Virus record (IMG/VR): IMGVR_UViG_3300049825_000986
Location: 1 to 37,933 of that record
DNA: 37,933 bases
From: a virus
Strand: one strand, 5' to 3'
Part shown: positions 2 to 19,077 of the stretch, piece after piece
Position numbering within the stretch: position 1 is the first letter of the stretch
Layout of the letters: each line of letters begins with the position of its first letter
Program-made: the position numbers and the translations under genes
Notes under the pieces: generated by a model
What the model was told of the DNA's origin: nothing
The model's input: the letters and a program-made list of their open reading frames with translations, nothing else
Databases searched by the model: none

Positions 2-100
2 TGGTTTAAGCTCAACAAAAAATTAGCCGAATATAAAAAGGTTAAGCAAAAAAACAAATCTAATAATTTAGGTAAGAGTGCCGGAACAAATAATCATTGA
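2..100 (+). CDS. C-terminal end of a gene upstream of the tape measure (partial)
   Basis: An open frame enters from the left edge and ends at TGA 98-100, giving a Lys/Asn-rich tail of 32 residues. It overlaps the GTG start of the tape measure gene by 23 nt. In tailed phages the position just before the tape measure usually holds the tail assembly chaperones, often a frameshifted pair, so this may be the end of such a gene. The sequence itself carries no recognisable motif, and the start is outside the window. Confidence 0.45.
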   Translation, partial: WFKLNKKLAEYKKVKQKNKSNNLGKSAGTNNH

Positions 101-3100: not shown

Positions 3101-3353
3101 GGCTGCAAATGCAGATGAAATTCTTACAATGGGTGGTAGACTTCCAATATTTAATAATGAAGCAGTAAGCAATACTTATGTTGATAAATCGGGTAGTTTA
3201 AGTATAGATTATACAAAACTTGGTAAAGCTATTGTAAGCCAACTGCCAAAGCCTGTAATTAATAATATAATAATGGATGAAAATGGATTTTCGAAATACA
3301 TTATAGATAATGGTAACAAAACAACTATTAAAAACGAAAGATATACATTTTAA
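78..3353 (+). CDS. Tape measure protein
   Basis: 1091 residues, the longest protein here. Most of it is charged, Lys/Glu/Ala/Gln-rich helix typical of coiled coil. Hydrophobic stretches lie near residues 185-205, 285-310 and 915-965. The C-terminal part contains SGYALVGEEGPEIVKLNGGE, the signature found near the end of many phage tape measures. Tape measures set tail length and line the tail tube until DNA ejection; at the usual ~0.15 nm per residue this one predicts a tail of roughly 160 nm. Three related segments with a ~70-residue period begin near residues 449, 519 and 589 (A-x-x-GS-x-AE/EQ). The start is GTG, chosen because the protein begins with the usual EIIIEF-like strand and no ATG is near. 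It abuts the next gene with a TAATG overlap. Confidence 0.93.
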   Translation: MPEQIIIEFIGDASKLAPAVDVLEQLGQIDAKAAQSFRASNAELAKRETILKKTNAEEQKQVKTINDVGKSVAKLGSTFKQAFEAEIMTAIDEAGISIEEFEAALKKNGITLDSYIKSQIDLKGQLKQTVNAMTILKANNEDVSVQYEELKEKAGGLKKAINDVNKEVKESGSDTKGLSKLIELTRGIAGGYAVLSAGAAIFGDENKNVEETIAQVNSAMAVMQGLQEIGIILNKTEYQSLGAIVGLQRVQVIQTNLQTAAESKSVIVRWLAVAAQRALNVAMSANPIGILIVGIAAVAAGLALFGTNARESARAQAELNSTLKDLGEYLDEDLKRIENFNAKMVAFGLVRGEGYNFFIKKEEELYNAELVRIQESINNANKLLDDEKKINKLSEEDFKKLLESKQKAEEKKQAIIDKADIRKYEIQREQYERDIKSFTAYQDAKVFIARKGSIAELEAQINASKARRDAELNLNPDLTPGERAKIIAQTNREILELDNAITVKRLQNIKFLKDAALLNAKAGSIAELQIKKDAVIASRNVELAALGISTEQQKAIRASSAREIKEIDAQLQQRRIQLQIDSNDALLSKAKEGSKEQFKFSIEALKLQYEYDLKELGITANKKTAIEEKYLKSVRDLTKQFNKQTAEDTVNTKLSDTNTKLAALQKASTSATNAEVLGLKKQAIDEQVQLEIISAEFSIHNEQAKQAKLKEIIAKANAEKLALEEAQKIAIINNSLETTQLEIALEQNKQIKILNTGGFGFKKRIEARKEIKRLEIEAIKAEENANEEKFKKQLITLEEYEKKKLEISKKYSDKDLENTIEKEDLKKQIKEASIKLAQDISNAYFEVEQAQIQARLDSELKRIDEQKSKELENANLTEQQKADINAKYREKERAIRRKAAEDEKQAKITQALINGALAITNILATMPKFDFGVASALAIGASIVSTGIAVAKIKSTPIPAFKTGTKNAPSGYALVGEEGPEIVKLNGGEKIYKYKDSMRIADAWRGGLAANADEILTMGGRLPIFNNEAVSNTYVDKSGSLSIDYTKLGKAIVSQLPKPVINNIIMDENGFSKYIIDNGNKTTIKNERYTF

Positions 3354-5635
3354 TGAATTGGATCTTTACCATATTAGACCGAAATAACGTTGCTCATCTA
3401 ATTGATGAACCTATAGGCTTTTCTGATTGTGAAATTGAGATTAAACGAGATTTGGAAACACACGGTATTTTCTTTGATTACCAAAAAAATGATTTTTCTT
3501 TTGATGGTACTGCTATGCAATTAATTAGGAAAGAATATGATGACTATGGTGTGGAAGGCAATATGCAGTTAATTATAGAATGGAGTTGTAATAATGAGTT
3601 AGTCGAGCTATATAGAGGAAAATTATTGTTTGCTGATTATAATTATACCTGTGGGGATGAATGCTTTGTTAAACTTCCTATGGAAACCAGCAGCGACATA
3701 CTAAACTTAAAAAATAAAAAGGATCAAAAGGTAAATTTATTAACAGATAAAGCTTTCGATGGTACTACTTCTTTAGTGCCTTATAATAAACTTGGTTTTG
3801 AAATGTCTTTACCAAGCAAAGCCATATTATTGCAAAACAAAAGCTTAAATGAAACATTAAATATTACTCCAGTTTTAGGGCAATATCCTGGCTTTGTGCC
3901 AAGTGGAGCAAGTTGGGCACAAGGAGGTTTTGGAATGGTTGATTTTGGGTTTACAAAAACTATATCTAGTGAAATTGGTAACTATTTTACAAATTCTCAA
4001 CCAAGGTTTAATGATTTGGATATTGCAGATTCCAACGGGTTTGTAGTGTCTGGAATAAGTGCATTTGTAAAAATGTATCCGCCGTATTGCGATACTATTT
4101 ATAACCTACAGCCAGGCACACCTAATTATGGTGTTGCAACCTATCCTTATAAACTAGACATACAATTAGCTGGCACTTTAAAAAACTTGAATTGTAGAAG
4201 CCTTGGTGGTTGTGTCTTTTTTATTTACAAAAAAAATAGTGCTGGAATTTTATCGGAAGTATACAGGCAAGTTGTTTTGGATTTACCCCTTACAACTAAT
4301 AATGATATACCTTTTAATATAAATTACATAGATAATAATTTTCCACTAGATAATGGCGATCAAATATTTAGTTTTCTTTCTTTAACATATTTAAAATATG
4401 CAACTGCAATTACTAATAATTTAGATGCATTTCAAATTGAATGCGCCGCTAATAACTACTTTAAATTAACTAATTTAAGTGTTACCGAACCTACTTTAAG
4501 TAAAGTTTTTATGGTTAATGAAGCTTTTAGTAGAATAACTGAAGCTATAACAAACGATGCGGTAAGAGTGTATAGTGATTATTTTGGACGAACTGATGCA
4601 CAGCCTTATACAAGTATACAAGATGGCTGTGGAAGCTTAGAAGTGATTACAAAAGGCTTGTATTTAAGAAGGCAGGAAAATAGAATACCTAACCAGCCTT
4701 TTACAATGAATGTAAGTTTACAAGATATGTTAGAGGGACTGGAACCAATACATCATATCGGCATAGGTTTTGAAAATGACCCTAATAGAGTAGGCTATAA
4801 CCTTCTTAGAATAGAAAATTGGAAATATTTTTATAAACAAACCGTTGTGCTTAGTTGTGTTGGAGTTAACAAGATTGATAATGAGGTTATCAAAAGTGAA
4901 CATTATTCTACTTTTAAAATTGGTTACGAAAAATGGGAAGCCGAAGAATACAATGGCTTGGATGAATTTTTAACCAAACGTAATTTTAGAACTACTTTAA
5001 GTCAAATTAAGAATGAGCTTTCTAAATTGAGTAAATTTATAACAAGTGGTTATGCCATAGAGATTACTAAGCGAAAATTTAGCGCAGATAGTAAGGATTG
5101 GCGTTATGACAATGATACTTTTTTGATTTGCTGCAAAAGAAATAATTCAAACGATATTATAGTTGAACTTGGCAATATTCTCAATCCACAAAATATTATA
5201 GATCCTGACACCATTTATAATTACAGAATATCCCCAATTCGTAATGCTTTGCGTTGGATGAACAAAATATTTGCAAGTTATAATAACATCAACCCTACTA
5301 ACAATATTATATTTATGGACGGCGATGGCAATTATTTTGCCAGTGGCGAAATGGCATCTTCTGATTGCAAGTTTGAAAATCAAGAAGTTTTCGAAAGCCA
5401 AAACATAGATAATTCACTCTATGGAGATCCTAATAAAGCTGCACCAATATTAAAACCTGAAAGAGACACTTTTCAATATCCATTAAGTGTTAAGGAATTT
5501 AGAGAATTATTAAGCAATCCTTATGGAGTTATAGAGTATAATAACACATGTATAAATAGCGAAGGATGGATAGATACGATAAAATATAAACCAAGCATTG
5601 GAACAGCAACTTTCAAATTAATTCCTAAATATTAA
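3353..5635 (+). CDS. Distal tail / baseplate protein (putative)
   Basis: 760 residues starting MNWIFTILD; its ATG overlaps the tape measure stop (TAATG). The protein is mixed alpha/beta with many aromatic residues and no signal peptide or membrane segment. The position directly after the tape measure is that of the distal tail or baseplate hub proteins, which join tail tube to host-binding proteins. Similar large proteins sit here in other Bacteroidota siphophages and prophages. I see no catalytic motif. The role is inferred from position and size, not from a recognised domain. Confidence 0.6.
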   Translation: MNWIFTILDRNNVAHLIDEPIGFSDCEIEIKRDLETHGIFFDYQKNDFSFDGTAMQLIRKEYDDYGVEGNMQLIIEWSCNNELVELYRGKLLFADYNYTCGDECFVKLPMETSSDILNLKNKKDQKVNLLTDKAFDGTTSLVPYNKLGFEMSLPSKAILLQNKSLNETLNITPVLGQYPGFVPSGASWAQGGFGMVDFGFTKTISSEIGNYFTNSQPRFNDLDIADSNGFVVSGISAFVKMYPPYCDTIYNLQPGTPNYGVATYPYKLDIQLAGTLKNLNCRSLGGCVFFIYKKNSAGILSEVYRQVVLDLPLTTNNDIPFNINYIDNNFPLDNGDQIFSFLSLTYLKYATAITNNLDAFQIECAANNYFKLTNLSVTEPTLSKVFMVNEAFSRITEAITNDAVRVYSDYFGRTDAQPYTSIQDGCGSLEVITKGLYLRRQENRIPNQPFTMNVSLQDMLEGLEPIHHIGIGFENDPNRVGYNLLRIENWKYFYKQTVVLSCVGVNKIDNEVIKSEHYSTFKIGYEKWEAEEYNGLDEFLTKRNFRTTLSQIKNELSKLSKFITSGYAIEITKRKFSADSKDWRYDNDTFLICCKRNNSNDIIVELGNILNPQNIIDPDTIYNYRISPIRNALRWMNKIFASYNNINPTNNIIFMDGDGNYFASGEMASSDCKFENQEVFESQNIDNSLYGDPNKAAPILKPERDTFQYPLSVKEFRELLSNPYGVIEYNNTCINSEGWIDTIKYKPSIGTATFKLIPKY

Positions 5636-5638
5636 ATT

Positions 5639-7147
5639 ATGGCAGTACAATTAATCAATAAAAAATTCAGCTTTTTACAATTTGGTTTTGATACCAATAC
5701 TGTAGCTACTTGTGGTTGTGATAATTGCTATTTACCTGTATTAGAAGATGCGGATATTGCTTTTCAAGTTCTGCTAAAAACTACTACAGCACTAGAAGCA
5801 ACTAATATAATGCTTTTAACTGAAGATAAATTTAACCTCTGCTTACTAAACAATGCAACTGTAACAGATAGTAGCACATTTAATGCTGCAATTAAACACA
5901 ACTATGTAGCTGAAAACATACACTTTGCACGTCATCAAATAAGTCCAACAGAGATAGTATTATACTGGCCACACGGTATTTTTGATTTAGTGAGTTTTGT
6001 ATTAATTGAAGAAGTATTTAGATTAGGAATAAAAATCGAAATAACTACAGGTGTGTTTATTGAATTCCCATCTAATAGGTTGTACAGAACAGATGACAAG
6101 TGCTTTACAAGTAGGCTTACTTACAGTTGTGATGAAGATAGCTATGGGTTTGTTTATTGTAATGTTGATTATCCTAATAGTGTTAGGCTTCCTTTTCATT
6201 TAACCAAGCCAAATTGGAATGACGATGAAAATATTTATGTAAGAAGTGATGGAAGTATTAAAATAACTAAATCAGTTACACAAAAAGAATATGAATGTTT
6301 TACTGATTGGTTAAACGAAGATTTTCACGAAAAATTTAAAATTGCATTATCCCATGATGATGTACAAGTTAATGCAGCAAAGTATACTGGCGGTATTCGT
6401 AAAAACGGAAAGTATGAGCCTAATTATGAAGAAACAAATATGGAAAATTTAGCTCCAGCATCTTTTAAAGTTTTTGCTACTCCATATTTAGTGAAAAATG
6501 ATAATTGCCAAGTATGTGAGCCTTTTATTAGCAATACCTGTGGTATCATTAACAGCTTAATTGGGTTAACTACAGATGATCCGGGAACTACTTGGAATAC
6601 AACTATTAGCTCTTGTACTTTCTCTAATGTATTGGTTGCTGGAGCAAACCAAACAGTAGATATATTAATTCGCGAAGGTGGAACAACTGGCGCATTTGTA
6701 AGCTCTGGCATAATTACATTTGATTATACCGGAGTATTAACTTCAACACCAAATCCATTTGTAATAAGTAATATACCAGATGCTTGGCTTAGCGTTGAAA
6801 TAAAAGCAATAAATACTTGTGGCACTCTCTATGTTGTTACAAGAAACAATCCAACAAATTGTAATGCACCTACTAATCTTGTATTAGTATCTAATGTACC
6901 ATCTACTGTTAATAATAACAATAACGATATTACGTTGCATTTTACACCTGCATCGGGTATTACTATGTACAATTTTGAGTTAGAAGATACAATTGCAGCC
7001 TCAATTATTTTCACTGGCAATATTGCACAAAATGGAAATCCGTCTACAATATTTTTAGCAAACTTAGCACCATCTAACTATCAGTATAGAATAAGAAGCA
7101 TTTGCGGTGGTGGTATTTATAGCGCATTTATAAGTATTAATTTATAA
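5639..7147 (+). CDS. Tail-tip / baseplate protein with fibronectin-III-like C-terminus
   Basis: 502 residues, three bases after the previous gene and so co-transcribed. The first ~280 residues are a mixed domain with several Cys (CGCDNC near residue 25, NCQVC near residue 285). The last ~220 residues are Thr/Ser/Asn-rich beta sequence. The end, from NAPTNLVLVSN to a YQYRIRSIC strand, reads like a fibronectin type III or Ig-like sandwich, a fold common on phage tail tips where it helps surface adhesion. Function is inferred from position and the beta-rich C-terminus. A host-recognition role is possible but unproven. Confidence 0.5.
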   Translation: MAVQLINKKFSFLQFGFDTNTVATCGCDNCYLPVLEDADIAFQVLLKTTTALEATNIMLLTEDKFNLCLLNNATVTDSSTFNAAIKHNYVAENIHFARHQISPTEIVLYWPHGIFDLVSFVLIEEVFRLGIKIEITTGVFIEFPSNRLYRTDDKCFTSRLTYSCDEDSYGFVYCNVDYPNSVRLPFHLTKPNWNDDENIYVRSDGSIKITKSVTQKEYECFTDWLNEDFHEKFKIALSHDDVQVNAAKYTGGIRKNGKYEPNYEETNMENLAPASFKVFATPYLVKNDNCQVCEPFISNTCGIINSLIGLTTDDPGTTWNTTISSCTFSNVLVAGANQTVDILIREGGTTGAFVSSGIITFDYTGVLTSTPNPFVISNIPDAWLSVEIKAINTCGTLYVVTRNNPTNCNAPTNLVLVSNVPSTVNNNNNDITLHFTPASGITMYNFELEDTIAASIIFTGNIAQNGNPSTIFLANLAPSNYQYRIRSICGGGIYSAFISINL

Positions 7148-7183
7148 ATGAAAAAAAACGAAACAAACTTTTAAGATTAAGAA

Positions 7184-8959
7184 ATGACAACATTCACACC
7201 AGAGCAATTAAAAACTTTTTTTTCTGGAAATTATTTTCACAAAACCTATAATGCAACTAAAGAAATTGCAGATGGGTTACGATTACACGCCGATGGTATT
7301 TACCCGAAAGCATTAATTGAAGAGCGCCGACCAAGCGAAGGATTGGCTGTAAAAGCGTATAGGCAAAAAATTTGGAAACCAATTACAAAAAGTACTGTAG
7401 GGCGTGTCATCTTAGCATTTCAAAAAATAAGAAAATCTGCAGATTGGTCCATAAAGTTTGACTCTACAAAATTGCCATCTAGTATAATTGAACAAGAAAG
7501 CCCAGCTAATTATTTAGAAAAAAATTTTCCCAAACATAACAGTTTAACAAATTGGGCTTTTAGTATTTTATTAAAAAGTTGGCTAATAGATAGCAATGGT
7601 TGCATTGCAGTTTTTCCAGAGCCATTTAAAAATAATATTCCTAACAGTTATCAAAATCCAATACCCTACATATTCGATGCTGATTGTATTATTGATTACA
7701 AAGAAGGAGAGTATTATGTACTTAAATCTACTGACAAAGTTATTTATGGAACAGATAAAAAAAGTTGGGGGGATGTTTATTATATATTGGATAAAAATTC
7801 AGTTTTTCGGTTTGAACAAATAGATAGTATTAGATCATTTAAATTGGCCTGGGAATATGTCCACAATCTTAATGAGGTGCAAGTAATACCAATGAAAGGG
7901 GTTTTTAAAAAAAATCAAGACAATCAAACAATTTATGAAAGCGTATTGCAAAATATGGTACCGTTCTTAGATGAAGCTGTACGTGAGTATAGCGATGTAC
8001 AAGCCGAGGTTGTAAAAAATATTCATTCAAAAGAATGGGAGTTTGTTACCGACGATTGCCAAAAATGTAAAGGCAAGGGAACTTATACTGCAACTGGATT
8101 AACCAATACAAGTGTAACTTGTGAATTGTGCAACGGATCTGGTGGAAAAACGAGAGGTCCATATTCTACTTTACAAATTAAAGCGCCTATGGCTGGCGAA
8201 ATTTCGGTACCAACTCCGCCAATGGGTTATGTACAAAAAGATACCAGCATTATAGAAATACAAGACAAGAGGGTAGAAAAACACAAGCTAGATGCATTAG
8301 CTAGTGTTAATATGCAATTTTTAGAACAAATACCTTTGAACCAAAGTGGTGTAGCAAAAGAAGTGGATCAAGATGGATTAAATACTACAGTAAACTTTGT
8401 TGCCGAAAACATAGTTTATATGATGGATAGGTTTGCATACTTATCCATTGAGCAACGCTACAATACAGTAGTTTCCGACAAGCAAACAAGAATGGATTTG
8501 CTACCTACAATTGCAGTTCCAGACAAGTTAGATTTATTGAGTGCATCCTATTTAGAAACACAACTGAAGAATGCTAAGGATGCAAAAGCTAATCCTGTTA
8601 TTATTGTAGCTATGGAAAAGGAATATGCAAATAAAAAATTTGCAAATGACCCACAAGTAAGAGATATGGTAAGCTTAATTCTTTCTTTAGATCCCTTAGC
8701 TGGAGTTAGCGAAGATGATAAATTAAGCAGATTAGGCAATAAAGGTATTACAATGGAAACTTATGTAATGAGTTGCAATTTGCAAGAATTTATAAACCGT
8801 GCAATTGATGAAAAAGGAGATGCTTTTTATACTTTAAAAACAAAGGACCAAAAGATAATTATTAGAGAATTTGCTAAACAACAAATTGAAGAAGAAAACA
8901 CAACTTCAAAAATAATCGATTTGGCTAACGCCGAAAACGATCCGCTAACCAAGCAATAA
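7184..8959 (+). CDS. Portal protein with a four-cysteine zinc insertion
   Basis: 591 residues. It lies directly before the MuF minor head protein, the usual place of the portal, which forms the dodecameric ring through which DNA enters and leaves the capsid. The N-terminal half (FFSGNYFHKTYNATKEIADGL and onward) and the helical C-terminal half with MDRFAYLSIEQRYN fit a Bacteroidota portal-like family. Residues 292-320 carry two CxxCxGxG units (C292/C295 and C313/C316) as in the DnaJ zinc-binding region, probably a structural zinc site in a surface insertion. The C-terminus is acidic. The assignment rests on size and context; no signature was confirmed by search. Confidence 0.7.
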   Translation: MTTFTPEQLKTFFSGNYFHKTYNATKEIADGLRLHADGIYPKALIEERRPSEGLAVKAYRQKIWKPITKSTVGRVILAFQKIRKSADWSIKFDSTKLPSSIIEQESPANYLEKNFPKHNSLTNWAFSILLKSWLIDSNGCIAVFPEPFKNNIPNSYQNPIPYIFDADCIIDYKEGEYYVLKSTDKVIYGTDKKSWGDVYYILDKNSVFRFEQIDSIRSFKLAWEYVHNLNEVQVIPMKGVFKKNQDNQTIYESVLQNMVPFLDEAVREYSDVQAEVVKNIHSKEWEFVTDDCQKCKGKGTYTATGLTNTSVTCELCNGSGGKTRGPYSTLQIKAPMAGEISVPTPPMGYVQKDTSIIEIQDKRVEKHKLDALASVNMQFLEQIPLNQSGVAKEVDQDGLNTTVNFVAENIVYMMDRFAYLSIEQRYNTVVSDKQTRMDLLPTIAVPDKLDLLSASYLETQLKNAKDAKANPVIIVAMEKEYANKKFANDPQVRDMVSLILSLDPLAGVSEDDKLSRLGNKGITMETYVMSCNLQEFINRAIDEKGDAFYTLKTKDQKIIIREFAKQQIEEENTTSKIIDLANAENDPLTKQ

Positions 8960-9065
8960 AACGAGCAGGAATTTTAAAAATAATTGTCAAAAGTTCTAAT
9001 CTGGAATTACTGGGCTTATACATAGCCAACAAAAATAAAACAAATATTATTATGCAGCAAAAGCT

Positions 9066-10676
9066 TTGGCAGATTTTAAAAAACTTATTTCCTTAATTAC
9101 TTCAACTGTTGATGGGTTTAATAACACTATTCCTGGCATTCAAAAAAAGATGCTAGATGAACTATTGTTATTAACAAAAAAGTTGGATATTAAAGGGGAA
9201 AATATTGCCATTTCTGGAGCAAATATTAAATTACTTACGCAGCTTCAAAGCAAGTTGCAAAACATTATACTTAACCCAAATTATGTAAATGGCGTTAAAG
9301 AATATGTAAATTCATTTAATGATGTTGTAAATATTCAGCACGATTATTTTACAGAAATAACCGAAAAATTTAAACCACCAAAGTTAAGCAGTGAGCTTAA
9401 AAAACAAGCTATAATAGGAGTAGTTAACAACCTCACAGAAAATGGATTAAATGCTAATGTTATTGATAAAGTAAAAGATATTTTGCGAAAGTCAATAACA
9501 ACTGGCGGTAGTTACTCCAGTCTTAGCCAATCCTTAACCAATTTTATAATTGATAATAAAAGTGGGGAAGGGCAATTAGTAAAGTACACGAAGCAAATTA
9601 CCACAGATGCATTAAATCAATTTAGTGGCCAGTACACCCAATTAATAAGTAGTGATCTAGGATATGAATGGTTTCGATATTCTGGTTCCAATATTGAAAC
9701 TACACGCCCTTTTTGCCTGGCTTGTACCGAAAGAAAATATTTTCATATAAGCGAACTTCCAAATGTTTTAAAAGGAAAATTTCAAGAATTTGTAAAGTAT
9801 AATGGTGCTGTAAACCCTAAAACCGATTTACCTTATGGCTTTATTCCTAATACCGATGTAAGCAATTTTATGATTAACCGTGGTGGTTATAATTGTGGTC
9901 ATCAATGGCGACCAGTTAGTGAGGACCTTGTACCAATGGAACACCAATATAGGGTAAAAAGTACTTTGGATTACCACAATTGGGCATTGGCAAATAATAG
10001 GGAAGTTGAACCTATAAAAGCACAAGAAACAAAAGATGTAAAAGTTGAACCTACAATTAAAGAAAAGGTACTAGAAAAAAATAAAGATATTTTAAAAAAG
10101 ATAGAGGCAAAAGGTTATGTAATGGATAATGAATTGTTAGATAGTTTGGGTGATGAAATAAGTTTTACAACAATGCGGAAGAGTGGTGCTCATTATTTAC
10201 ATAGTACAAAAACTATTTCTATTGGAAGTAATCCTGATCGGATGAAAAGTGAATATTTCAAACAAACAGTTTTACCTCACGAGATTGGTCATGCTATTCA
10301 TAGTGCCAAAGGAATAATAGAAAAAGGTGTTGTTAGTGAGGACTTTGCAAATCACTTTGCAAAATTAAAAACAAAAATTTCAGGCAAAGAAAAAGAGATT
10401 AACGAATTAATCTATTCCAAAATAAAAGAAAATCGAAACAATGAAAACAACTTAGAGCAACTTTATGTAATCTATGACATACTTGGTAGCTTAACTAAAG
10501 GTAGATATGGCGGGGGTCATACAAAATCTTACTATAATAGACCTACTGGTGGACAAGTAGAAATATTCGCTCATTCAGTAAGCTTATTTAAGGTTAAAAA
10601 CGATTTTGAAAGCATTTCCACTGAAATTGCTGATGTTATTAGAGAAATGAAAGCTTATATATCAAAAGTCTTGTAA
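9066..10676 (+). CDS. MuF-type minor head protein fused to a zinc metallopeptidase (zincin) domain
   Basis: 536 residues. Residues ~90-295 match the MuF/SPP1 gp7 head-morphogenesis fold: a helical part, then YSGSNIETTRPFCLAC (C217) and GGYNCGHQWRP (C277), the conserved Arg/Cys and N-C-x-H elements. After a Lys/Glu linker (~310-345) comes a second domain with HEIGH (H405, E406, H409), an HExxH zinc site, and E499 in EIFAHS as possible third ligand. MuF proteins enter the capsid, and some phages fuse them to toxin or effector domains delivered with the DNA, so a delivered peptidase is plausible. The only fitting start is TTG at 9066; the 105 bases before it have stops in this frame, so the N-terminus is uncertain. 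The 3' end overlaps the convergent gene by 15 nt. Confidence 0.8.
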   Translation: MADFKKLISLITSTVDGFNNTIPGIQKKMLDELLLLTKKLDIKGENIAISGANIKLLTQLQSKLQNIILNPNYVNGVKEYVNSFNDVVNIQHDYFTEITEKFKPPKLSSELKKQAIIGVVNNLTENGLNANVIDKVKDILRKSITTGGSYSSLSQSLTNFIIDNKSGEGQLVKYTKQITTDALNQFSGQYTQLISSDLGYEWFRYSGSNIETTRPFCLACTERKYFHISELPNVLKGKFQEFVKYNGAVNPKTDLPYGFIPNTDVSNFMINRGGYNCGHQWRPVSEDLVPMEHQYRVKSTLDYHNWALANNREVEPIKAQETKDVKVEPTIKEKVLEKNKDILKKIEAKGYVMDNELLDSLGDEISFTTMRKSGAHYLHSTKTISIGSNPDRMKSEYFKQTVLPHEIGHAIHSAKGIIEKGVVSEDFANHFAKLKTKISGKEKEINELIYSKIKENRNNENNLEQLYVIYDILGSLTKGRYGGGHTKSYYNRPTGGQVEIFAHSVSLFKVKNDFESISTEIADVIREMKAYISKVL

Positions 10677-11916: not shown

Positions 11917-12798
11917 ATGATTCATAATTTAGGCCAGTTGCTACAGCACTTGGCAACAAAATCTGGAGTATTAGCAAATGATCCCAACTTAATAAATGTA
12001 TTAAGCAATGCTGAACTCACTAAAATAACTTTGCATAGCGATTTAGTTAGGCAAATTGATGAAAATCTATTATCTATCGATGTTGCAAAGGACAATCACC
12101 CGGTATTATCTACCCATTATAAAAGTCAAGCATTAAATGCTTTGGATAAAAGACTTTTAGCAATAGTGGGGGAATCTAATTTGCTTAATGAAGAGGAATT
12201 AACGGAGTTTAAAAAACCAACTAATAGCTACAAAAAGCTTGATACCGTTTTTGAAAAACTTAAAGCGGTTAAACCTGAGCCGTCTGGTGATGCTAAGCCA
12301 AATGAGGCTTTAAAAAAGCAAGTGGATGAGTTAGTTGTAAAGATTGCAGAAGGTGTTAAAGAAAGAGAAACATTAGTAGCAACACATAATGAATCTTTAC
12401 AAAAAGTAAAAACTGGTTACACATTCAGAGAAAAATTAGGCACTAGAAAAACTATTTTAGATGCACTTTCTCAAGAGACAAGAACGACTAGCCTTATGGC
12501 TGTTATTGATAAAGCATTGCAAGAAAAAGACGCAGTGCTCACTTATGATGAAAATGGCAATGCACAATTGCAAAAAAAAGACGGTACAAAACTATTAGCT
12601 GCCAACAATACTCCAATTTCGTTAGACGATCTTATTGATGGTGCTTTAGCTACCGAAAAATTATTAGTGGTTGCGCCAGAGCAATCAACCAATCCAACGC
12701 CTACACCAATTACGGTGCCTGGCGGTAATCCGACCGTAATTGACGGTACCAACCAATCTGTAGCAGATTATAATTTAGCTCAATTAGGGGTTAATTAA
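11917..12798 (+). CDS. Scaffold-like protein before the capsid gene (putative)
   Basis: 293 residues. Helical N-terminal region, a Lys/Glu-rich middle with KLKAVKPEPSGDAK and a coiled-coil stretch (residues ~125-165), then a Pro/Thr/Asn-rich C-terminal part (TNPTPTPITVPGGN). Long helical, charged proteins just upstream of the major capsid gene are usually scaffolding proteins, which shape the procapsid and are removed later. No protease motif is visible here. Assigned from position and composition. Confidence 0.55.
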   Translation: MIHNLGQLLQHLATKSGVLANDPNLINVLSNAELTKITLHSDLVRQIDENLLSIDVAKDNHPVLSTHYKSQALNALDKRLLAIVGESNLLNEEELTEFKKPTNSYKKLDTVFEKLKAVKPEPSGDAKPNEALKKQVDELVVKIAEGVKERETLVATHNESLQKVKTGYTFREKLGTRKTILDALSQETRTTSLMAVIDKALQEKDAVLTYDENGNAQLQKKDGTKLLAANNTPISLDDLIDGALATEKLLVVAPEQSTNPTPTPITVPGGNPTVIDGTNQSVADYNLAQLGVN

Positions 12799-12831
12799 AG
12801 CTACAGCAAACCTTTTTTATTATTTAAAAAA

Positions 12832-13989
12832 ATGGCAGATGGTTATAACGTGCCCATATTAAGGCACATAAGTCAGGTTAATAAAATTAATCCTGCTAAA
12901 AAAATAGCACCACTAGGAATGCTTAGTGCTGTATTATCTAATCAAGATAACAGTGCACAATTAATTAACTCCGACCGTGATGAAAGCGGTCATAGAAAAG
13001 AGTTAAAAGTAAAGTATCGTAAAAGAGTTTTGGAAAGTGCTGTAAGCGATGGCCCAGCAGATTGTAATGGTGGTGCAACTCCAGTTTACAACGAATTTGG
13101 CTTTCCAGCAATGTTGCAAAATACGTATCAATTATTTGTTCCTATCAATTTACTTCGTCAATACGAAAAAGATTGTAGCGACCATATTACTTTGAATGGT
13201 GCTGTTCCTGTTGATATTAAGAAGCAGACCAACGTAATGAAAGAAATGTATGAAATGCTTGTAGAAGGTGGCCAAGCCATTTTAAAGCGTATTAACACTC
13301 GTTTAGTTACAAGTATGGCTACACAATTTGGCGTTAATACAGTAAGCGGTAACAATGCTGCAAGAGCATTATCATTTCAATTGGGTACTACAGGTATGCA
13401 AGATGCAATGGTGCAATTAATTAACGACTGGAGAGAAAACGAATTAGACGATGCTGTTTTTATGGTTGGTAATGGTGCATTTTCAAACTATGATCTTATT
13501 AAAAGGATTATGAGTAATATGCCAAACGACCAAGGTGTTAATCAAGCGGCTTTGGCTAACCTTATGCCTAAAGTATACTTTGATAAAGATACTAGAGCTG
13601 TTTGGGGTGCTAACCAAGTTGGTGTATTTGAAAAGGGTAGTGTACACTTCTTAACGTACAACGATTACCAAGGTAATTTCCGTCAATCTGTTGCTAATAG
13701 TGATTTCTTCACAATGGCTTTACCTATTAATGAATATGTAGGTACTATGTATAACCCAATGCCAAATGAAAACTTGAATAAGCTTTTATTTGATGTGCAA
13801 GTGAAAGAATTTGATTGTGCTCAAGAGTTACTTATTAATGGTGTGCTTACTAATACTGGCGGTCCTGGTGTTTTAATTTCACTAAACAAAAAGTGGAATT
13901 TGTTCACTAAGCCTACAAGCTTGTATGAAACTGCAGATCCATTATTTGGAACAAATGGAACACTTCGTTATACTATTACAGGTACTTAA
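12832..13989 (+). CDS. Major capsid protein (putative)
   Basis: 385 residues starting MADGYNVPILRHISQVNK. It follows the scaffold-like gene, precedes the connector genes, and is followed by a strong hairpin, as expected for the most highly expressed structural gene. The sequence is compact, without membrane segments, and has mixed alpha/beta character (FSNYDLIKRIMSNMPNDQ; NEYVGTMYNPMPNENLN) consistent with an HK97-fold subunit, although the fold cannot be proven by eye. The leader is A-rich with no Shine-Dalgarno sequence. Confidence 0.7.
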   Translation: MADGYNVPILRHISQVNKINPAKKIAPLGMLSAVLSNQDNSAQLINSDRDESGHRKELKVKYRKRVLESAVSDGPADCNGGATPVYNEFGFPAMLQNTYQLFVPINLLRQYEKDCSDHITLNGAVPVDIKKQTNVMKEMYEMLVEGGQAILKRINTRLVTSMATQFGVNTVSGNNAARALSFQLGTTGMQDAMVQLINDWRENELDDAVFMVGNGAFSNYDLIKRIMSNMPNDQGVNQAALANLMPKVYFDKDTRAVWGANQVGVFEKGSVHFLTYNDYQGNFRQSVANSDFFTMALPINEYVGTMYNPMPNENLNKLLFDVQVKEFDCAQELLINGVLTNTGGPGVLISLNKKWNLFTKPTSLYETADPLFGTNGTLRYTITGT

Positions 13990-13995
13990 TTTATA

Positions 13996-14028
13996 AAATG
14001 TAACCTATGTTACCCATAGGTTACATTT
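13996..14028 (+). terminator. Perfect 14-bp hairpin after the capsid gene
   Basis: Arms 13996-14009 and 14015-14028 are fully complementary with a 5-nt loop (TTACC), followed by a T-rich stretch interrupted by A (TATTTTCTT). It starts 6 nt after the capsid stop codon. It probably acts as a partial terminator or as a 3' stabiliser that raises capsid mRNA over the downstream connector genes. The ATG at 14007 lies inside it, one reason to start the next gene at 14040. Confidence 0.7.
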
Positions 14029-14039
14029 ATTTTCTTACT

Positions 14040-14567
14040 ATGGATTTAGAATGCTTTATTAATCATATTGGAATTAAAAGCTGTGGAAATACTCCCAGTA
14101 CCAGTGGCTCTTTTATAAATGAATTGCCAGGTATTACTTTTAAAATGATTGATAGTATTACCGACATAGAGCAACAAACTTTTGTTCAATTTTGGAATGA
14201 TATACAAAAAACCGCCTTAAGAAAATTTACAAAAGAAGTAACCAGTCGTTTTACTAAGAAGTATGAAGGCTTTTGTTGCAGTGGTGATGAGTGTCAAATC
14301 GATTTTATAGTATGTACCAATATTGATTTATTTGAAGATGCTTGGATGTATTTGTTAGGTATAGAATTAATGATGGCAAGATTGTATTCTGATAGATTTA
14401 ATAGATATACCACAATAGACAGAAACCAAGCAACTGAGTTAAAAGATTTTTATATGGTAGAGTTTGAAAAAAGTTTGAACCACGCCATAAAGTACATACC
14501 TAAAGATTTTATTGAAAAGTGTTATGAGTGCAGAAGCACAATAGACCACGTAGAAGTATTACCGTGA
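14040..14567 (+). CDS. Head-tail connector protein (putative)
   Basis: 175 residues starting MDLECFINHIGIK. An in-frame ATG at 14007 is rejected because it lies within the hairpin after the capsid gene. The segment SGSFINELPGI followed by a helical domain resembles small neck or adaptor proteins that follow the capsid gene in Bacteroidota phages. Two Cys pairs are present (FCCSGDEC; CYEC). Position between capsid and tail-completion genes supports an adaptor role. Its stop overlaps the next start (GTGA). Confidence 0.55.
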   Translation: MDLECFINHIGIKSCGNTPSTSGSFINELPGITFKMIDSITDIEQQTFVQFWNDIQKTALRKFTKEVTSRFTKKYEGFCCSGDECQIDFIVCTNIDLFEDAWMYLLGIELMMARLYSDRFNRYTTIDRNQATELKDFYMVEFEKSLNHAIKYIPKDFIEKCYECRSTIDHVEVLP

Positions 14568-15013
14568 TAAGAGTAAAAACAAATATTAGTGTCGTTTCTT
14601 CAAGTCTACTGAATAAAATTGCAGTGCTTAAAAATCCACAGCAGTTTCTTAGGCCAGTAGCTATTGATGCATTAGCACTAATGACAGAAAGAATACACGA
14701 AGAAGGTAAAGCTGCCGACGGAAGCCCAATTGGTACTTATAGTAATAACTATTTAAAGCTAAGGCAAGGCAAATACAAACGAAATGGCGATACTAAAATT
14801 ACGGTTAGTCTTACACGACAGCTAGAAAATACCTGGAGTGTAATAGCTACTACCAATGGCTGGGGAATTGGGTTTACTAATGTAACTAATGCACAAAAAT
14901 TAAAATGGGTAGAGGAACAAAAAAGTAAAAAGATTGGTGCTTTAACTACTAAGGAAAAAGAATATGCAATTACCAAATTAGAAAAAGTGATAAAAGAAGC
15001 ATTAAGTAAATGA
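14564..15013 (+). CDS. Phage virion morphogenesis / tail completion protein
   Basis: 149 residues from GTG 14564, which overlaps the previous stop by 4 nt; the longer GTG at 14528 would overlap it by 40 nt. A helical N-terminus, a segment AADGSPIGTYSNNYLKLRQGK, then SLTRQLENTWSV and a mixed domain match the pattern of the Mu gpG / HK97 gp10-like family, which closes the head-to-tail junction. The end is Lys-rich. It overlaps the next start (ATGA). Confidence 0.65.
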   Translation: MIRVKTNISVVSSSLLNKIAVLKNPQQFLRPVAIDALALMTERIHEEGKAADGSPIGTYSNNYLKLRQGKYKRNGDTKITVSLTRQLENTWSVIATTNGWGIGFTNVTNAQKLKWVEEQKSKKIGALTTKEKEYAITKLEKVIKEALSK

Positions 15014-15606
15014 GTTATTTAAAAAAAATAGTAACACTTATTAATGATGGTTTAAACGAAGGTTTTTTAAACCAAAAGCTTTTTGTAAATAATAAAATAA
15101 TTGGTATTGCTCAACTTTTACCACGTAGAGAAAACGACAAATTAGAGTTACTTCCTTGCTATGTAAGTAATAATGGAGATGCGCAATATGTTGGACCAGA
15201 TGCGGATTATGATTACTTGGCTTACCATAGATGTTTAGGTATTACCGTAGCTAAAGCAAATGTAAATACTGGTTACGGAGATGCCAAAGGATATGATGCC
15301 AATAGTACAAGAATGAGTTATGTTGTTTTTTGTTGTAAAAATAAAATTGAAAAAAGTAACGATGAAATTGCCTTATTTATACAAGCGAATTTTATAGAAG
15401 CTTTGGAAAAAGAAAATTTACAAGACTTACAATTAAAAGCCTGTAATATAAAAATTACAGATATAGTCTTAAATGACTTGCAGGTGTTTAATGAAGAATT
15501 TCAAGGAGTGGAGTACTTTTTAAAACCTGAACAATTTCTATTAAAGGTGAATTACACCATTGAAAGTGCTTTTGATAAAAAGTGCTTTAAAAATTGTTGT
15601 GAATAA
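15010..15606 (+). CDS. Tail terminator-like protein (putative)
   Basis: 198 residues, ATGA overlap with the tail completion gene. Mixed alpha/beta, starting MSYLKKIVTLINDGLNEG, without membrane or signal segments. In siphophages the gene between the gp10-like protein and the major tail protein is normally the tail terminator, which caps the tube. I do not recognise a sequence signature. Position is the main support. Confidence 0.5.
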   Translation: MSYLKKIVTLINDGLNEGFLNQKLFVNNKIIGIAQLLPRRENDKLELLPCYVSNNGDAQYVGPDADYDYLAYHRCLGITVAKANVNTGYGDAKGYDANSTRMSYVVFCCKNKIEKSNDEIALFIQANFIEALEKENLQDLQLKACNIKITDIVLNDLQVFNEEFQGVEYFLKPEQFLLKVNYTIESAFDKKCFKNCCE

Positions 15607-15628
15607 AAATTAAAAAAAATTATTTATT

Positions 15629-16237
15629 ATGCCTATAGTAAATCCTTGTGCAGGAGATATATTAGACCCAAAATGCGACCCTTGTTTTGGCGAAGTAGAA
15701 CACGGTAGAATCCGTGGAGGTGCTTATGTACATCATACATACAAAGCCGAATTCGAAGCTAAAATTATTGATTTACAAACTGCAGTTAATGCTGTACCTC
15801 AAGTTCCAGCTACAATTACAGCAGCTAGAACAGCTTTAAAAACTGCTTGGGATGCTGGAGTTACTGACAAAGTAATTTACGTGATTCCAGAAACTACAGG
15901 AACTTTCGACGGTGGTGCACCTGTTGAAGGTCCTGGTTATGGCGACCGTACTAGTCGTTTTATTGGCTTTACTTTTGGTTTGGCTTACAAAGATCCAAGC
16001 TTTAAGGCCAACACTGGTTTTTACAATACTATTAGTCGTTCTACTGGATGGCATTTTATATGGAGAACAGAAACGCTTACTAGAATTAGTAACAACCCTG
16101 TAACCATTGTTCATAAATCACCTGTTCAGGAAGATATGAATAGTGAAGTAGTATGGGAAGTTGAAATTAAGTGGAATGGTAAGGACCAACCAATTAGTTA
16201 TACTGAAATGATAGAATTGTTTGTTTGCCCAAACTAG
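15629..16237 (+). CDS. Major tail protein, short form (probable)
   Basis: 202 residues starting MPIVNPCAGDILDPKCDPCFGE. It follows the tail-terminator-like gene and precedes the fibre, the normal slot of the tail tube subunit. The body is beta-rich (RFIGFTFGLAYKDPSFKAN; WHFIWRTETLTRI; SEVVWEVEIKWNGK), consistent with a tube-forming beta-barrel. The last codons before TAG are TGC CCA AAC, which contain the slippery heptamer C CCA AAC; a -1 shift there would extend the protein by 31 residues (see the separate entry). No sheath gene is visible, so a siphovirus-type tail is likely. Confidence 0.65.
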   Translation: MPIVNPCAGDILDPKCDPCFGEVEHGRIRGGAYVHHTYKAEFEAKIIDLQTAVNAVPQVPATITAARTALKTAWDAGVTDKVIYVIPETTGTFDGGAPVEGPGYGDRTSRFIGFTFGLAYKDPSFKANTGFYNTISRSTGWHFIWRTETLTRISNNPVTIVHKSPVQEDMNSEVVWEVEIKWNGKDQPISYTEMIELFVCPN

Positions 16238-16329
16238 GAGGGGGTTCACCATCCCCATCTGGTTTAATTATCACTGAAATTTCAGAACCGATAATACAAG
16301 AAAATGGTGGTTATTTTATTCAAGAATAA
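16228..16329 (+). other. Programmed -1 ribosomal frameshift site and C-terminal extension of the major tail protein
   Basis: The heptamer C CCA AAC (16228-16234) fits X XXY YYZ and sits directly before TAG 16235-16237. After slipping, ribosomes read CCC AAA CTA GGA and continue to TAA 16327-16329, adding 31 residues: a linker with GGGSPSPSG, then a short domain ending IIQENGGYFIQE. A GGGG/CCCC hairpin (16241-16244 with 16253-16256) begins 6 nt after the heptamer, the usual spacing for a stimulatory structure. The extended product would be join(15629..16234,16234..16329), 233 residues. The extension has no start codon of its own near its 5' end. Tail proteins of some phages are known to be made in two lengths this way. 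Confidence 0.75.
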
Positions 16330-16338
16330 ACTTATAAA

Positions 16339-17742
16339 ATGTCTGATTTAAAATTTAGCCAAATGGCTGGAGTTGGAGCTATAACTGGTAATGAACTACT
16401 ACCATTGGTACAATCTGGAGGGAATGTTAAGGCAAATTTAAACCAATTAAAAAGATGGGCTTCCACACTTGGAAACCCATCTGCTATTTACAATGGCGCA
16501 TTGCCACCAAATGATTTTTTCGGGTGGGCTGAATTTTCTGGATACCATACTCTTGTCGGTAAAACCATTAGCCTGGGCTCAAATTCTTTTCCGCAATTAG
16601 ACCAAAATAGTGCTATTTATCCTATAAATCCTTTAAACTCTTTAGCTTGTGATTATGAACTAGAGTTAATTTTCAAAGCTTTTAATGGGCTGAAGTTAGG
16701 ATTAGGCACTATAGGAAATCAAGCACTTAGCCCTGTTAGTAGCGTAGGTTATGCAACATTTTCAACAACACCTGCAACGAGTGGTATAATTTTGGATAAT
16801 AGCATAATTGGAAGTGATTACGATAACACCTCATTAGGCTTCAACTATCAAGATGGCGATCTTTGTAAATTAACTTACAGGCAAGACAACGAAAAGTATG
16901 TAGTTGTTTTAGAAAATTTAATTAATAATACAAAGGTAGAAATTGGTGAAATTAATCCTTATGGTGATTTCACTATAACACAAGATTTTCAAAGCACTAG
17001 TGGTCAAGTATGTATAAGCCACTGTTCTGGACAATTTGAAATATTAAGCTTTAATTATGTAGAATTATTCACATCAAGCATTTGCTTTGTGGGAAATTCT
17101 ATTACAGAAGGTTATGGAAGTGGTACAAGTAACGATTTCATTCAGCAATTGGAATCTATATATGGAATAAAGTTTAAAAAGTATGCTAAAGCAGGTGTCA
17201 CTTCTACAGAAATTAAGAATAACTTAAGGCATATAATTGCGGGCAATTTTAACACAGTAGTATTAAATGGCATCTATTACAATGATGGCTTTGCTGGTAT
17301 ATCAATAGCTCAAACAAAAGCAAATATTACATCCATAATAACAAGCTTAAAAGCAGCAAATACTAAAGTAATTTTATGCACCACGCCATACAATGCATAT
17401 GCAAGTAATCACAATACAATTAGAGATTGGATGATTGCCACTTACAGTACACTTCCAATGATTAGGATAGATTTAGCAATTAATAGTACAAATTTTACAA
17501 CTTTAACAGCGGATGGGGCACACCCTAATACGGATGGGTATTATGAGATTGCAAGTTTGTTTGTTATTTATTTTGACAACAACCCTTTTGTACATCAATA
17601 TGAATACGGCAATATTGTTTATAATAAAGACATTACACAAATTCCTGTTGGTATGTGGCAGGTTTTAAAAAATTTACCCGATGGAAAAGTTTTTATTGCA
17701 GCAAATGATGCTGGAGTAATTAAAAAAGTTGAGTTATTGTAA
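16339..17742 (+). CDS. Tail fibre / spike with SGNH (GDSL-like) hydrolase domain
   Basis: 467 residues. The N-terminus (SDLKFSQMAGVGAITGNELL, then LPLVQSGGN) is a virion-attachment motif seen at the start of many phage fibres. Residues ~80-240 form a beta-rich carbohydrate-binding-like domain. From ~245 an SGNH hydrolase follows: CFVGNSITEG with nucleophile S254, N315 in YYND, and the D392-GA-H395 pair of block V. Such enzymes remove acetyl or similar ester groups from surface polysaccharides, so this protein probably binds and modifies the host capsule or O-antigen during adsorption. It lies between the tail protein and the lysis genes. The last ~40 residues form a short Lys/Ile-rich tail. 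Confidence 0.75.
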   Translation: MSDLKFSQMAGVGAITGNELLPLVQSGGNVKANLNQLKRWASTLGNPSAIYNGALPPNDFFGWAEFSGYHTLVGKTISLGSNSFPQLDQNSAIYPINPLNSLACDYELELIFKAFNGLKLGLGTIGNQALSPVSSVGYATFSTTPATSGIILDNSIIGSDYDNTSLGFNYQDGDLCKLTYRQDNEKYVVVLENLINNTKVEIGEINPYGDFTITQDFQSTSGQVCISHCSGQFEILSFNYVELFTSSICFVGNSITEGYGSGTSNDFIQQLESIYGIKFKKYAKAGVTSTEIKNNLRHIIAGNFNTVVLNGIYYNDGFAGISIAQTKANITSIITSLKAANTKVILCTTPYNAYASNHNTIRDWMIATYSTLPMIRIDLAINSTNFTTLTADGAHPNTDGYYEIASLFVIYFDNNPFVHQYEYGNIVYNKDITQIPVGMWQVLKNLPDGKVFIAANDAGVIKKVELL

Positions 17743-17777
17743 AGACACAAACACAACTTAAAAACCAAACAAAAATT

Positions 17778-18077
17778 ATGATTTTTTTTAAAATAAAAGT
17801 CCACTTTTTACAAACAGTTGGTACCGGTTTCGAAATACCAGGCTGGGCAGAAAAAGTATCTGTTTTAGCAATACTAGCAGGGTTGGTTTATTACTTTAGC
17901 AAGCAACTTGACCAAATGAAGGAGCTAAGAGAGGAAGACAGAAAAGAGTTTGAGTTGAAACGGGAAGCCGATCGTAAAGAAATGGTTGCAATGCACGATA
18001 AGGCAATTGAAAGCATTAATAACAATACCAATGTTATGCAACGATTAATTGATAAAATTGATAACCAAAAAAATTAA
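17778..18077 (+). CDS. Holin-like protein with one membrane segment
   Basis: 99 residues. One clear transmembrane helix (VSVLAILAGLVYYFS, about residues 32-48) is preceded by a short N-terminal part and followed by a highly charged helix (EEDRKEFELKREADRKE) likely to form a coiled coil in the cytoplasm. It starts the lysis block, 2 nt before the spanin-like gene. Size, topology and position suggest the holin or a holin accessory that controls endolysin release. Sequence alone does not separate these two. Confidence 0.6.
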   Translation: MIFFKIKVHFLQTVGTGFEIPGWAEKVSVLAILAGLVYYFSKQLDQMKELREEDRKEFELKREADRKEMVAMHDKAIESINNNTNVMQRLIDKIDNQKN

Positions 18078-18079
18078 TT

Positions 18080-18658
18080 ATGGAAAACACCATTGCTCAT
18101 AAAAGCTATCATAATAAAATTATTGTTTTAATTGCAATTCTGTTTGCTTTACTTTTCTTATGCAGCTGCTCAAGGCCTAAATTTACCAAGTCAAATGATA
18201 TTGTAAAAATTGATAGTATTTACATTAAGCAAATAGAAAGAGTAGAAGTATTTACAAAAGATACTATAATTACAACTCAATTGGATAGTGTACTTATTTT
18301 GGATACATTGTTTTTGCCAAAAGATTGTCCAACTGTAAAAGATAAATCTATTGAGCGGTACTCAAATAGTGGTAATACCAAGGCAACTATTAATTTAAAA
18401 AATGGCTTACTTTCTGTAAGGTGTGATAGCGATAGCTTAAAGATTTTAGTTACCAATTTAAGGCGTGAAATAAGCTTTACTAATAACGAGTTGTCCAAAG
18501 CCAAATTACACAATACCACTATTACTGTAGAAAAACCAGTACCGAAAATAAAGTATAAAATACCTTGGTGGGCCTGGTTGTGCCTAGCTTATACTTTGAC
18601 ATCATTATTTTACATTTTCAGAAAACCTATTATTTTACTTTTAAAAAAATTATTATGA
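18080..18658 (+). CDS. Unimolecular spanin (u-spanin) candidate
   Basis: 192 residues. The N-terminus has a basic stretch, a hydrophobic core (IIVLIAILFALLFL) and a lipobox-like L-C-S-C, so the mature protein would be a lipoprotein anchored in the outer membrane. The C-terminus holds a second hydrophobic helix (WWAWLCLAYTLTSLFYIF, about residues 160-177) followed by a basic tail, fitting an inner-membrane anchor. The middle, about 130 residues, is a periplasmic linker with a coiled-coil-like part. A single protein tied to both membranes is the u-spanin design, which fuses the two membranes in the last step of lysis. It overlaps the endolysin start by 4 nt. Confidence 0.6.
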   Translation: MENTIAHKSYHNKIIVLIAILFALLFLCSCSRPKFTKSNDIVKIDSIYIKQIERVEVFTKDTIITTQLDSVLILDTLFLPKDCPTVKDKSIERYSNSGNTKATINLKNGLLSVRCDSDSLKILVTNLRREISFTNNELSKAKLHNTTITVEKPVPKIKYKIPWWAWLCLAYTLTSLFYIFRKPIILLLKKLL

Positions 18659-19077
18659 TTACAAGCCAAGAAGCACTTAAAAAATATGGTGCACCCGAAA
18701 AAGAAAGTTCGATGGTGGTGTGGGATATTCCGGCAGATATTAACGGTTCAATTCCAACCTTGCCTAATAGATTGTATTGTAATAAAGATATGATTCAACC
18801 ATTAGAAAAAGCATTTAGAGCTATAATAGCTGCTAAATTACAAGGCGAAGTAAAAACTTTTGATGGGTGCTTTAATATTAGGAGCAAAAGAGGACAAAGT
18901 ACGCAAAGTTTACATAGTTGGGGTATTGCTATTGATATTAATGCTGCTTGGAATGGATTTGGTGCAAAGCCTACAATGAGCAATGCTCTAGTGCAATGCT
19001 TTACCTATAATGGTTTTGATTGGGGTGGTACTTGGAGTAAACCAGACGGTATGCACTTCCAGTTGAAAAGTATTTAA
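18655..19077 (+). CDS. Endolysin, M15-family peptidase
   Basis: 140 residues from ATG 18655 (ATGA overlap with the spanin gene); the longer frame from 18565 would overlap it by 94 nt. The zinc site of the M15/VanY-type D-Ala-D-Ala or L-Ala-D-Glu peptidases is clear: SLHSWGIAIDIN with H87 and D94, and the second His in DGMHFQ (H134). It cleaves the peptide part of peptidoglycan. There is no signal peptide, so export should depend on the holin-like protein. Length is normal for a single-domain phage endolysin. Confidence 0.85.
   Translation: MITSQEALKKYGAPEKESSMVVWDIPADINGSIPTLPNRLYCNKDMIQPLEKAFRAIIAAKLQGEVKTFDGCFNIRSKRGQSTQSLHSWGIAIDINAAWNGFGAKPTMSNALVQCFTYNGFDWGGTWSKPDGMHFQLKSI

Follow-up and report, generated by a model that had tools for sequence, protein, structure and literature searches.

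Tail-tube proteins extended by ribosomal frameshifting are described in a few phages of Gram-positive hosts, where the shift is mostly +1 and the added part is a whole binding domain. In SPP1, ribosomes that shift by +1 at the tail-tube stop (CCCUAA) yield, next to gp17.1, a longer minor form, gp17.1*, at a ratio of about 3:1, and the 87-residue FN3-type extension is not essential, as far as the accessible parts of the reports go (PMC6316719, PMC8718954). The lactococcal 936 phages produce MTP-TpeX by a +1 shift at CCC.UAG, so that subunits with a large carbohydrate-binding extension, for which host binding was shown, are mixed with short ones; among their relatives, the extension is absent, in-frame or frameshifted, and the gene region is a rearrangement hotspot (accessible parts of PMC4759559 and PMC6669499). 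The tsh gene of the Listeria phages PSA, A118 and A500 has a +1 shift at CCC_UGA, and in lambda G/GT, a -1 slip takes place close to the end of a tail gene, in this case one whose product is not the tail-tube protein but a chaperone that does not stay in the tail (both from the available portion of PMC5009743). The major tail protein of Lactobacillus phage A2 is extended by a -1 frameshift (Rodriguez et al. 2005, as cited in the accessible part of PMC7260188), and its extension is called Ig-like in that of PMC5009743. Frameshift-extended tail proteins, with a +1 shift in SPP1, 936 and Listeria phages and a -1 shift in A2, are already known, and the statement in a sequence-only reading of the DNA analyzed here that a few phages make two lengths of tail protein by frameshifting agrees with the accessible parts of these sources.

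The locus described here comes from the window, i.e., the whole 37,933-nucleotide stretch of a viral record. It resembles A2 in that a -1 ribosomal frameshift would extend the major tail protein, and lambda G/GT in that slippage would occur near the end of a tail gene, and differs from A2 in host group and sequence. Compared with SPP1, 936 and the Listeria phages, the predicted shift is -1 instead of +1, and, compared with SPP1 and 936, the added part is a tag of 20-45 residues instead of a large domain; as in the 936 group, the extension is absent, in-frame or frameshifted among relatives and the region is prone to exchange. These comparisons hold for the accessible parts of the sources named above. 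What is new is the unrelated phage group, the apparent use of -1 with varied heptamers, the short tags in place of domains, and the tag exchange at the slip site. In the literature covered, from which subscription papers were mostly absent, no report of a frameshifted major tail protein in Bacteroidetes or Flavobacterium phages and no description of such tags in a like phage group was found, and the window phage group had no match in the phage collection searched.

The gene 15629-16237 (here and below, the coordinates of the tail gene, the fibre-like gene and the recoding signals refer to the + strand) is read in the 0 frame as a protein of 202 amino acids that ends in ...ELFVCPN*, the bases at its end being TGC CCA AAC TAG GAG GGG GTT. 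PHROG and Pfam searches detect no family match for this protein. An AlphaFold model built from a nine-sequence alignment reaches a pLDDT of 70 (an earlier model was poor, pLDDT 59), and nearly all of the 50 structural matches listed for it are tail-tube, tail-tip or Hcp-fold proteins. The best partners are tail-tube proteins of lambda, 80alpha, SPP1, GTA and others, with a highest Z of 7.9 among all matches and, for the lambda tail tube, a Z of 7.5 and an rmsd of 4.1 over 133 aligned residues. Given that Z stays below 8 and that a Foldseek search with the model gives zero matches at E < 0.001, the match to the tail-tube fold is only moderate; AcrA-like efflux proteins among the top rows of the Foldseek output (TM <= 0.26) are taken as helical-hairpin noise. 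The tail gene is preceded by a capsid-like gene and three small genes, in this order, and followed by a GDSL domain-containing fibre-like gene, an order that we take to be the usual arrangement from head completion to tail tube, the capsid and completion roles being assigned from gene order alone, with none of these proteins named by any library. Together, fold comparison and gene order support 15629-16237 as the gene for the major tail (tube) protein.

The fibre-like gene (16339-17742) is the first one past the extension discussed below, and its GDSL esterase/lipase domain (Pfam PF13472, E 2e-8) might provide the adsorption apparatus with a glycan deacetylase. The product of 78-3353, a gene located far upstream of that for the tail tube, is likely the tape measure protein and also matches an endolysin PHROG profile. 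The C-terminal part of the protein encoded by 9066-10676 weakly matches PHROG 1233 (E 7e-4); the motif GGYNCGHQ is common to this protein and to the product of gene 155-907 of the related contig L026, the C-terminal parts of the two being different by eye.

The slippery heptamer C_CCA_AAC (16228-16234) fits the pattern X_XXY_YYZ, with CCA AAC in the 0 frame and CCC AAA in the -1 frame, and, as the sequence-only reading had it, stands directly before the 0-frame stop UAG (16235-16237), which overlaps the -1 codons CTA GGA. The same reading had described an open -1 frame that adds 31 residues and stops just before the fibre gene, and this is indeed what is found: past the slip site, the frame 16228-16329 reads CTA GGA GGG GGT and on to a TAA at 16327-16329, 9 nt upstream of the ATG of the next gene (16339). 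The 31-residue extension, LGGGSPSPSGLIITEISEPIIQENGGYFIQE, consists of a Gly/Ser/Pro linker followed by a short hydrophobic end (...IIQENGGYFIQE). In the case of a simultaneous slip of two tRNAs, both Pro and Asn will have been loaded beforehand, and the junction is expected to be VCPN-LGGG; the junction proposed previously, VCPK-LGGG, is a possible alternative. A PHROGs search with the 33-residue -1 peptide gives no match, and the tag is too short for an Ig-like, FN3 or carbohydrate-binding domain, none of which is present. No ATG, GTG or TTG codon occurs within the window extension. Lys and Arg are likewise absent from it, so that with a VCPN junction a tryptic digest would yield a single C-terminal peptide of 48 residues. 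A +1 shift and stop readthrough are rejected, since both other frames end within 13 codons of the stop, which leaves -1 as the sole route to a long extension. The 101-nt gap after the 0-frame stop is long for this region, the other gaps within 12798-18080 ranging from -40 to 35 nt. A -1 frame that is open for at least 31 codons is found at about 19% of the ORF ends in the genomes compared, and the evidence from the window alone weakly exceeds chance. This frequency is compatible with an alternative in which the -1 stretch is untranslated, i.e., the tail protein ends at the UAG and the 101 nt are a spacer or the decayed remnant of an in-frame extension; the relatives of the tail gene bear on this possibility.

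The tail gene is present in 13 related viral contigs, with L027/L037 cut before the gene end; the 12 remaining contigs and the window provide nine distinct tail genes with a readable end. Five of the nine (window, L026, L029, L038 and L039) have the -1 arrangement, defined as a slip site 0-1 codon before the UAG, a helix that starts 4-6 nt past this site, and a -1 extension of 20-45 residues. L026 ends in TCA AAT TTT TAG, with A_AAU_UUU and a 45-residue -1 extension; L029 (and the identical L030) in GGG GAT TTT TAG, with G_GAU_UUU and a 24-residue extension; L038 in CCA AAC TTT TAG, with the same C_CCA_AAC as the window and 26 codons of -1 reading; and L039 in CCA AAG TTT TAG, with C_CCA_AAG and 21 codons of -1 reading. 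Both the slip sites and the extension sequences differ between these genes. In three of the nine, the extension is in frame, namely, L009, L010 (same in L011) and L016 (same in L015 and L017); for example, at the position of the window slip site, the L010 tail protein (3801-4691) continues in frame into about 95 additional residues. The remaining gene, L013, is the closest to the window (43% identity) and lacks an extension: its end contains a T_TTA_AAC heptamer, followed by 7 codons of -1 frame past the stop and no helix at the right place, which indicates that heptamers at the ends of tail genes can be incidental. The comparison of homologues that had been proposed as a check on conservation of heptamer and extension gives a mixed pattern, with both kept in five of nine, an in-frame extension in three and none in one. 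Homologues without the arrangement, the case considered beforehand to speak against it, do exist (four of the nine distinct tail genes); the -1 arrangement is not universal, and is not refuted where it is kept.

Additional relatives were not detected in single-protein scans of viral and genome contigs, in a capsid scan or in an alignment-based genome scan, and a rescan returned only the L013 contig again. Tail proteins, tags and DNA used as queries against phage and plasmid collections identified no relatives either, and three weak matches at E 9 are taken as chance.

The recurrence of the arrangement constrains several explanations other than frameshifting. A separate gene that starts inside the -1 frame is rejected, with no ATG, GTG or TTG in the extensions of 31, 45, 24, 26 and 21 codons (0 in 147 codons). 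Homopolymer runs at the slip sites do not exceed five T (L026 and L029), a length that is probably too short for polymerase slippage, which is likewise rejected. Insertion of one extra base before the stop would join the two frames, and some relatives are fused in frame, so that a continuous gene from which a base was lost in the C or A run, through a one-base contig error or a real deletion, could account for the window. However, five distinct genes, on six contigs, show the same offset frame, with an exact match between L029 and L030, and an error would need to recur at the same codon every time, which makes a lost base extremely improbable. As to the heptamers themselves, C_CCA_AAG has a high propensity to shift in E. 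coli, and in pea enation mosaic virus (PEMV), G_GAU_UUU is followed 3 nt on by a stop whose replacement with a sense codon has a strong effect on frameshifting (both according to the available portion of PMC5009743).

Downstream of the window heptamer, a hairpin GGGGGU/AUCCCC with the loop UCACC (16240-16256) is a candidate stimulator. The hairpin noted previously is thus present, with its start 5 nt after the heptamer, at 16240, rather than 6 nt; the spacer comprises 16235-16239, and the best helix pairs 16240-16245 with 16251-16256. The purine run GGAGGGGG, which had been suggested to act as a Shine-Dalgarno-like stimulator, lies downstream of the slip site, so that this role is rejected; the run forms the 5' arm of the helix and encodes the Gly linker. 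Against dinucleotide shuffles, the window hairpin gives z 0.03 at 40 nt and z -0.70 in a second test, and it is unusual in its position only, not in stability. In one helix search applied to all five genes, the helix starts 5 nt after the heptamer in the window, 6 in L026, 4 in L029 (where the G-rich core sits further in), 6 in L038 and 5 in L039; L038 and L039, whose heptamers sit one codon farther upstream of the stop, maintain the distance between helix and heptamer. The L038 helix has 13 perfect pairs around 70 nt, with a stem that spans 96 nt. Among 250 control placements at ORF ends, an equally strong helix starting 4-8 nt downstream is found in 8 for the window, 12 for L026, 8 for L029, 2 for L038 and 6 for L039, with a combined p of 5.8e-5, or 2.6e-4 when L039 is left out. 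H-type pseudoknot pairings are possible in the window (ACCA 16248-16251 with UGGU 16260-16263, a candidate stem 2 within 16248-16263 that is weak), in L026 (ACGGU/ACCGU) and in L029 (UCCGGU/ACCGGA). Given that shuffled downstream sequence matches this stem 2 in 12% of the cases for the window, 1.2% for L026 and 0.6% for L029, L026 and L029 provide a lead towards a pseudoknot, and the window a weak one; the search in L039 shows none (shuffles equal in 70%).

Hairpins next to a stop codon can also be read as transcription signals. In a pattern scan, 16240-16256 is flagged as terminator-like, and a strong hairpin also follows the stop of L013 and, in L029, that of the extension, in line with the window hairpin being an attenuator or terminator that came to lie beside the slip site by chance. 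But the sequence past the window stem, ATCTGGTTTA, is hardly T-rich, the L038 stem has no T run behind it, and the strong L029 hairpin is located past the stop of the extension, not past the 0-frame stop, so that a transcriptional role in place of a stimulatory one appears very unlikely. The L029 hairpin in question (approximately 6666-6701, GGGGAAGGGGTAAA/TTTACCCCTTC) is very stable, terminator-like in being followed by T, and directly adjoins the stop of the -1 extension.

A comparison set of 135 non-overlapping ORFs of at least 120 aa from 11 sources, with duplicate contigs left out, allows the ends of the tail genes to be compared with those of other genes. Strict heptamers (X not Y) occur in the last four codons of five of the nine tail genes vs 3 of the 126 other ORFs (Fisher 1.9e-5; 1.8e-4 without L039); these five include L013, which has no extension, whereas G_GAU_UUU of L029 falls outside the strict definition and is left out of the count. 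The full set of three features, namely any heptamer, at least 20 codons past the stop, and, 4-8 nt after the heptamer, the start of a helix of -5.5 kcal/mol or lower, is present at 4 of the 135 ORF ends, all of them tail genes (window, L026, L038 and L039). The thresholds were set after the cases had been seen, the stem and heptamer measures were likewise chosen post hoc, and L038 and L039 cannot be treated as independent, so that these p values are descriptive and do not represent blind tests. The combination of features and its recurrence in relatives exceed chance; chance alone is rejected as the explanation for the whole set of tail genes, not for the window by itself.

In all five genes, the -1 stretch and in-frame pieces have similar codon scores. 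Stop-free off-frame pieces that score as high number 199 of 1891 in the window, 37 of 191 in L026, 92 of 1134 in L029, 25 of 689 in L038 and 185 of 1005 in L039, with a combined p of 0.011, so that codon usage lends modest support to the -1 stretches being coding. A first version of this analysis, in which none of 616 off-frame pieces scored as high as the window stretch, was dropped as too lenient because off-frame pieces contain stops. Codon scores only modestly above those of stop-free off-frame stretches, and the existence of relatives without an extension (L013) or with in-frame ones (L009, L010 and L016), would also fit an untranslated spacer or remnant. On the other side, no stop interrupts the -1 frame for 21 to 45 codons in five distinct genes, whose slip sites and helices are also similarly spaced, and remnants would fall in either frame, whereas all five are in -1; an untranslated stretch is accordingly considered quite unlikely. 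Programmed -1 frameshifting that extends the major tail protein, as originally proposed from the letters, emerges as the best-supported reading, on the combined grounds of predicted fold, gene order and recurrence in relatives.

The near-identical phages L038 and L039 are informative with respect to the origin of the tags. Their tail genes are 95% identical at the DNA level, and the alignment (2205-6569 in L038 coordinates) ends 2 nt past the tail gene stop, to resume at 8947 in L038 and 9782 in L039. The segments in between (6569-8947 and 6569-9782, respectively), from the tail stop to genes past the lysis region, are wholly different. The two phages have different tags along with different fibre regions, both tags being in the -1 frame. 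Across cores, the tags of L026 and L038 are alike (1 of 3000 shuffles is as good), and so are those of L029 and L039, with the shared pattern EFxxxFxDxF (0.008 in 3000 shuffles). The window tag shows no clear match to either tag type (0.17 with L026, 0.28 with L038 and 0.019 with L039), and blastp of the downstream ORFs detects no fibre gene shared within a tag type at E 1e-4. Two genes of a lysis-like region in L039 (8391-9238) and in the window (17821-18660) share 79% DNA identity; nearly all the other DNA compared (12.6 kb of L039) has no match to the window, a sign of module exchange.

Because of the swap between L038 and L039 and the recurrence of tags across cores, the slip site marks the point at which a conserved core gives way to an exchangeable module. 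A tentative extension of this observation is that the -1 slip site acts as a frame-gated port joining the conserved tail core to an exchangeable host-contact module, such that recombination brings in a new fibre region together with its tag, read by the same backward slip. The first evidence for such a port comes from L038 and L039, with the same core and a different tag and fibre region, and from the tag types found across cores; we hold the port to be possible rather than probable. Instead of being binding domains, the exchangeable tags might be peptides to which fibres or whiskers dock.

Taken together, these observations are best compatible with programmed -1 frameshifting at the end of the tail-tube gene, which very probably adds short exchangeable tags to some tail subunits. 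From the sequence features described above, we infer that a ribosome with tRNA-Pro and tRNA-Asn would slip back by one base on C_CCA_AAC at the last two codons, in a tandem slippage from CCA AAC to CCC AAA, and that the adjoining UAG and the hairpin or pseudoknot 5 nt downstream would slow the ribosome and aid the slip. Most ribosomes would stop and produce the 202-residue protein, and a share would continue to the form with 31 extra residues; both forms probably enter the tail tube, the tag being placed on the outside of some subunits. Given that the tag sits at the start of an exchangeable fibre module, its most likely job is in adsorption, through weak cell contact or by holding a fibre or whisker protein. 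The analogy with the FN3 extension of SPP1 and with TpeX of the 936 phages, as presented in the accessible parts of PMC8718954, PMC6669499 and PMC4759559, also suggests that the tag probably serves adsorption.

Alternatively, the frameshift could be real and the extended form confined to one special ring (tip or neck) or to assembly, like lambda gpGT; lambda-type phages indeed use a -1 frameshift in the tail assembly chaperone G/GT (available portion of PMC5009743). The tail-tube fold of the protein argues against this possibility, as do the in-frame relatives, in which every subunit is extended, fitting surface decoration. The lambda G/GT gene adjoins the tape measure gene, whereas the next gene here is fibre-like. 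A special ring or an assembly-only role is thus unlikely, and decoration of the tube surface remains the preferred reading.

If the arrangement is real, recoding in this phage group would serve as a joint for exchanging host-contact parts, and L038 and L039 would be a natural pair for testing the function of tail tags. If the slip site is in fact a frame-gated port, slippage would set the dose of the tag, and tags would be swappable without a change to the tube.
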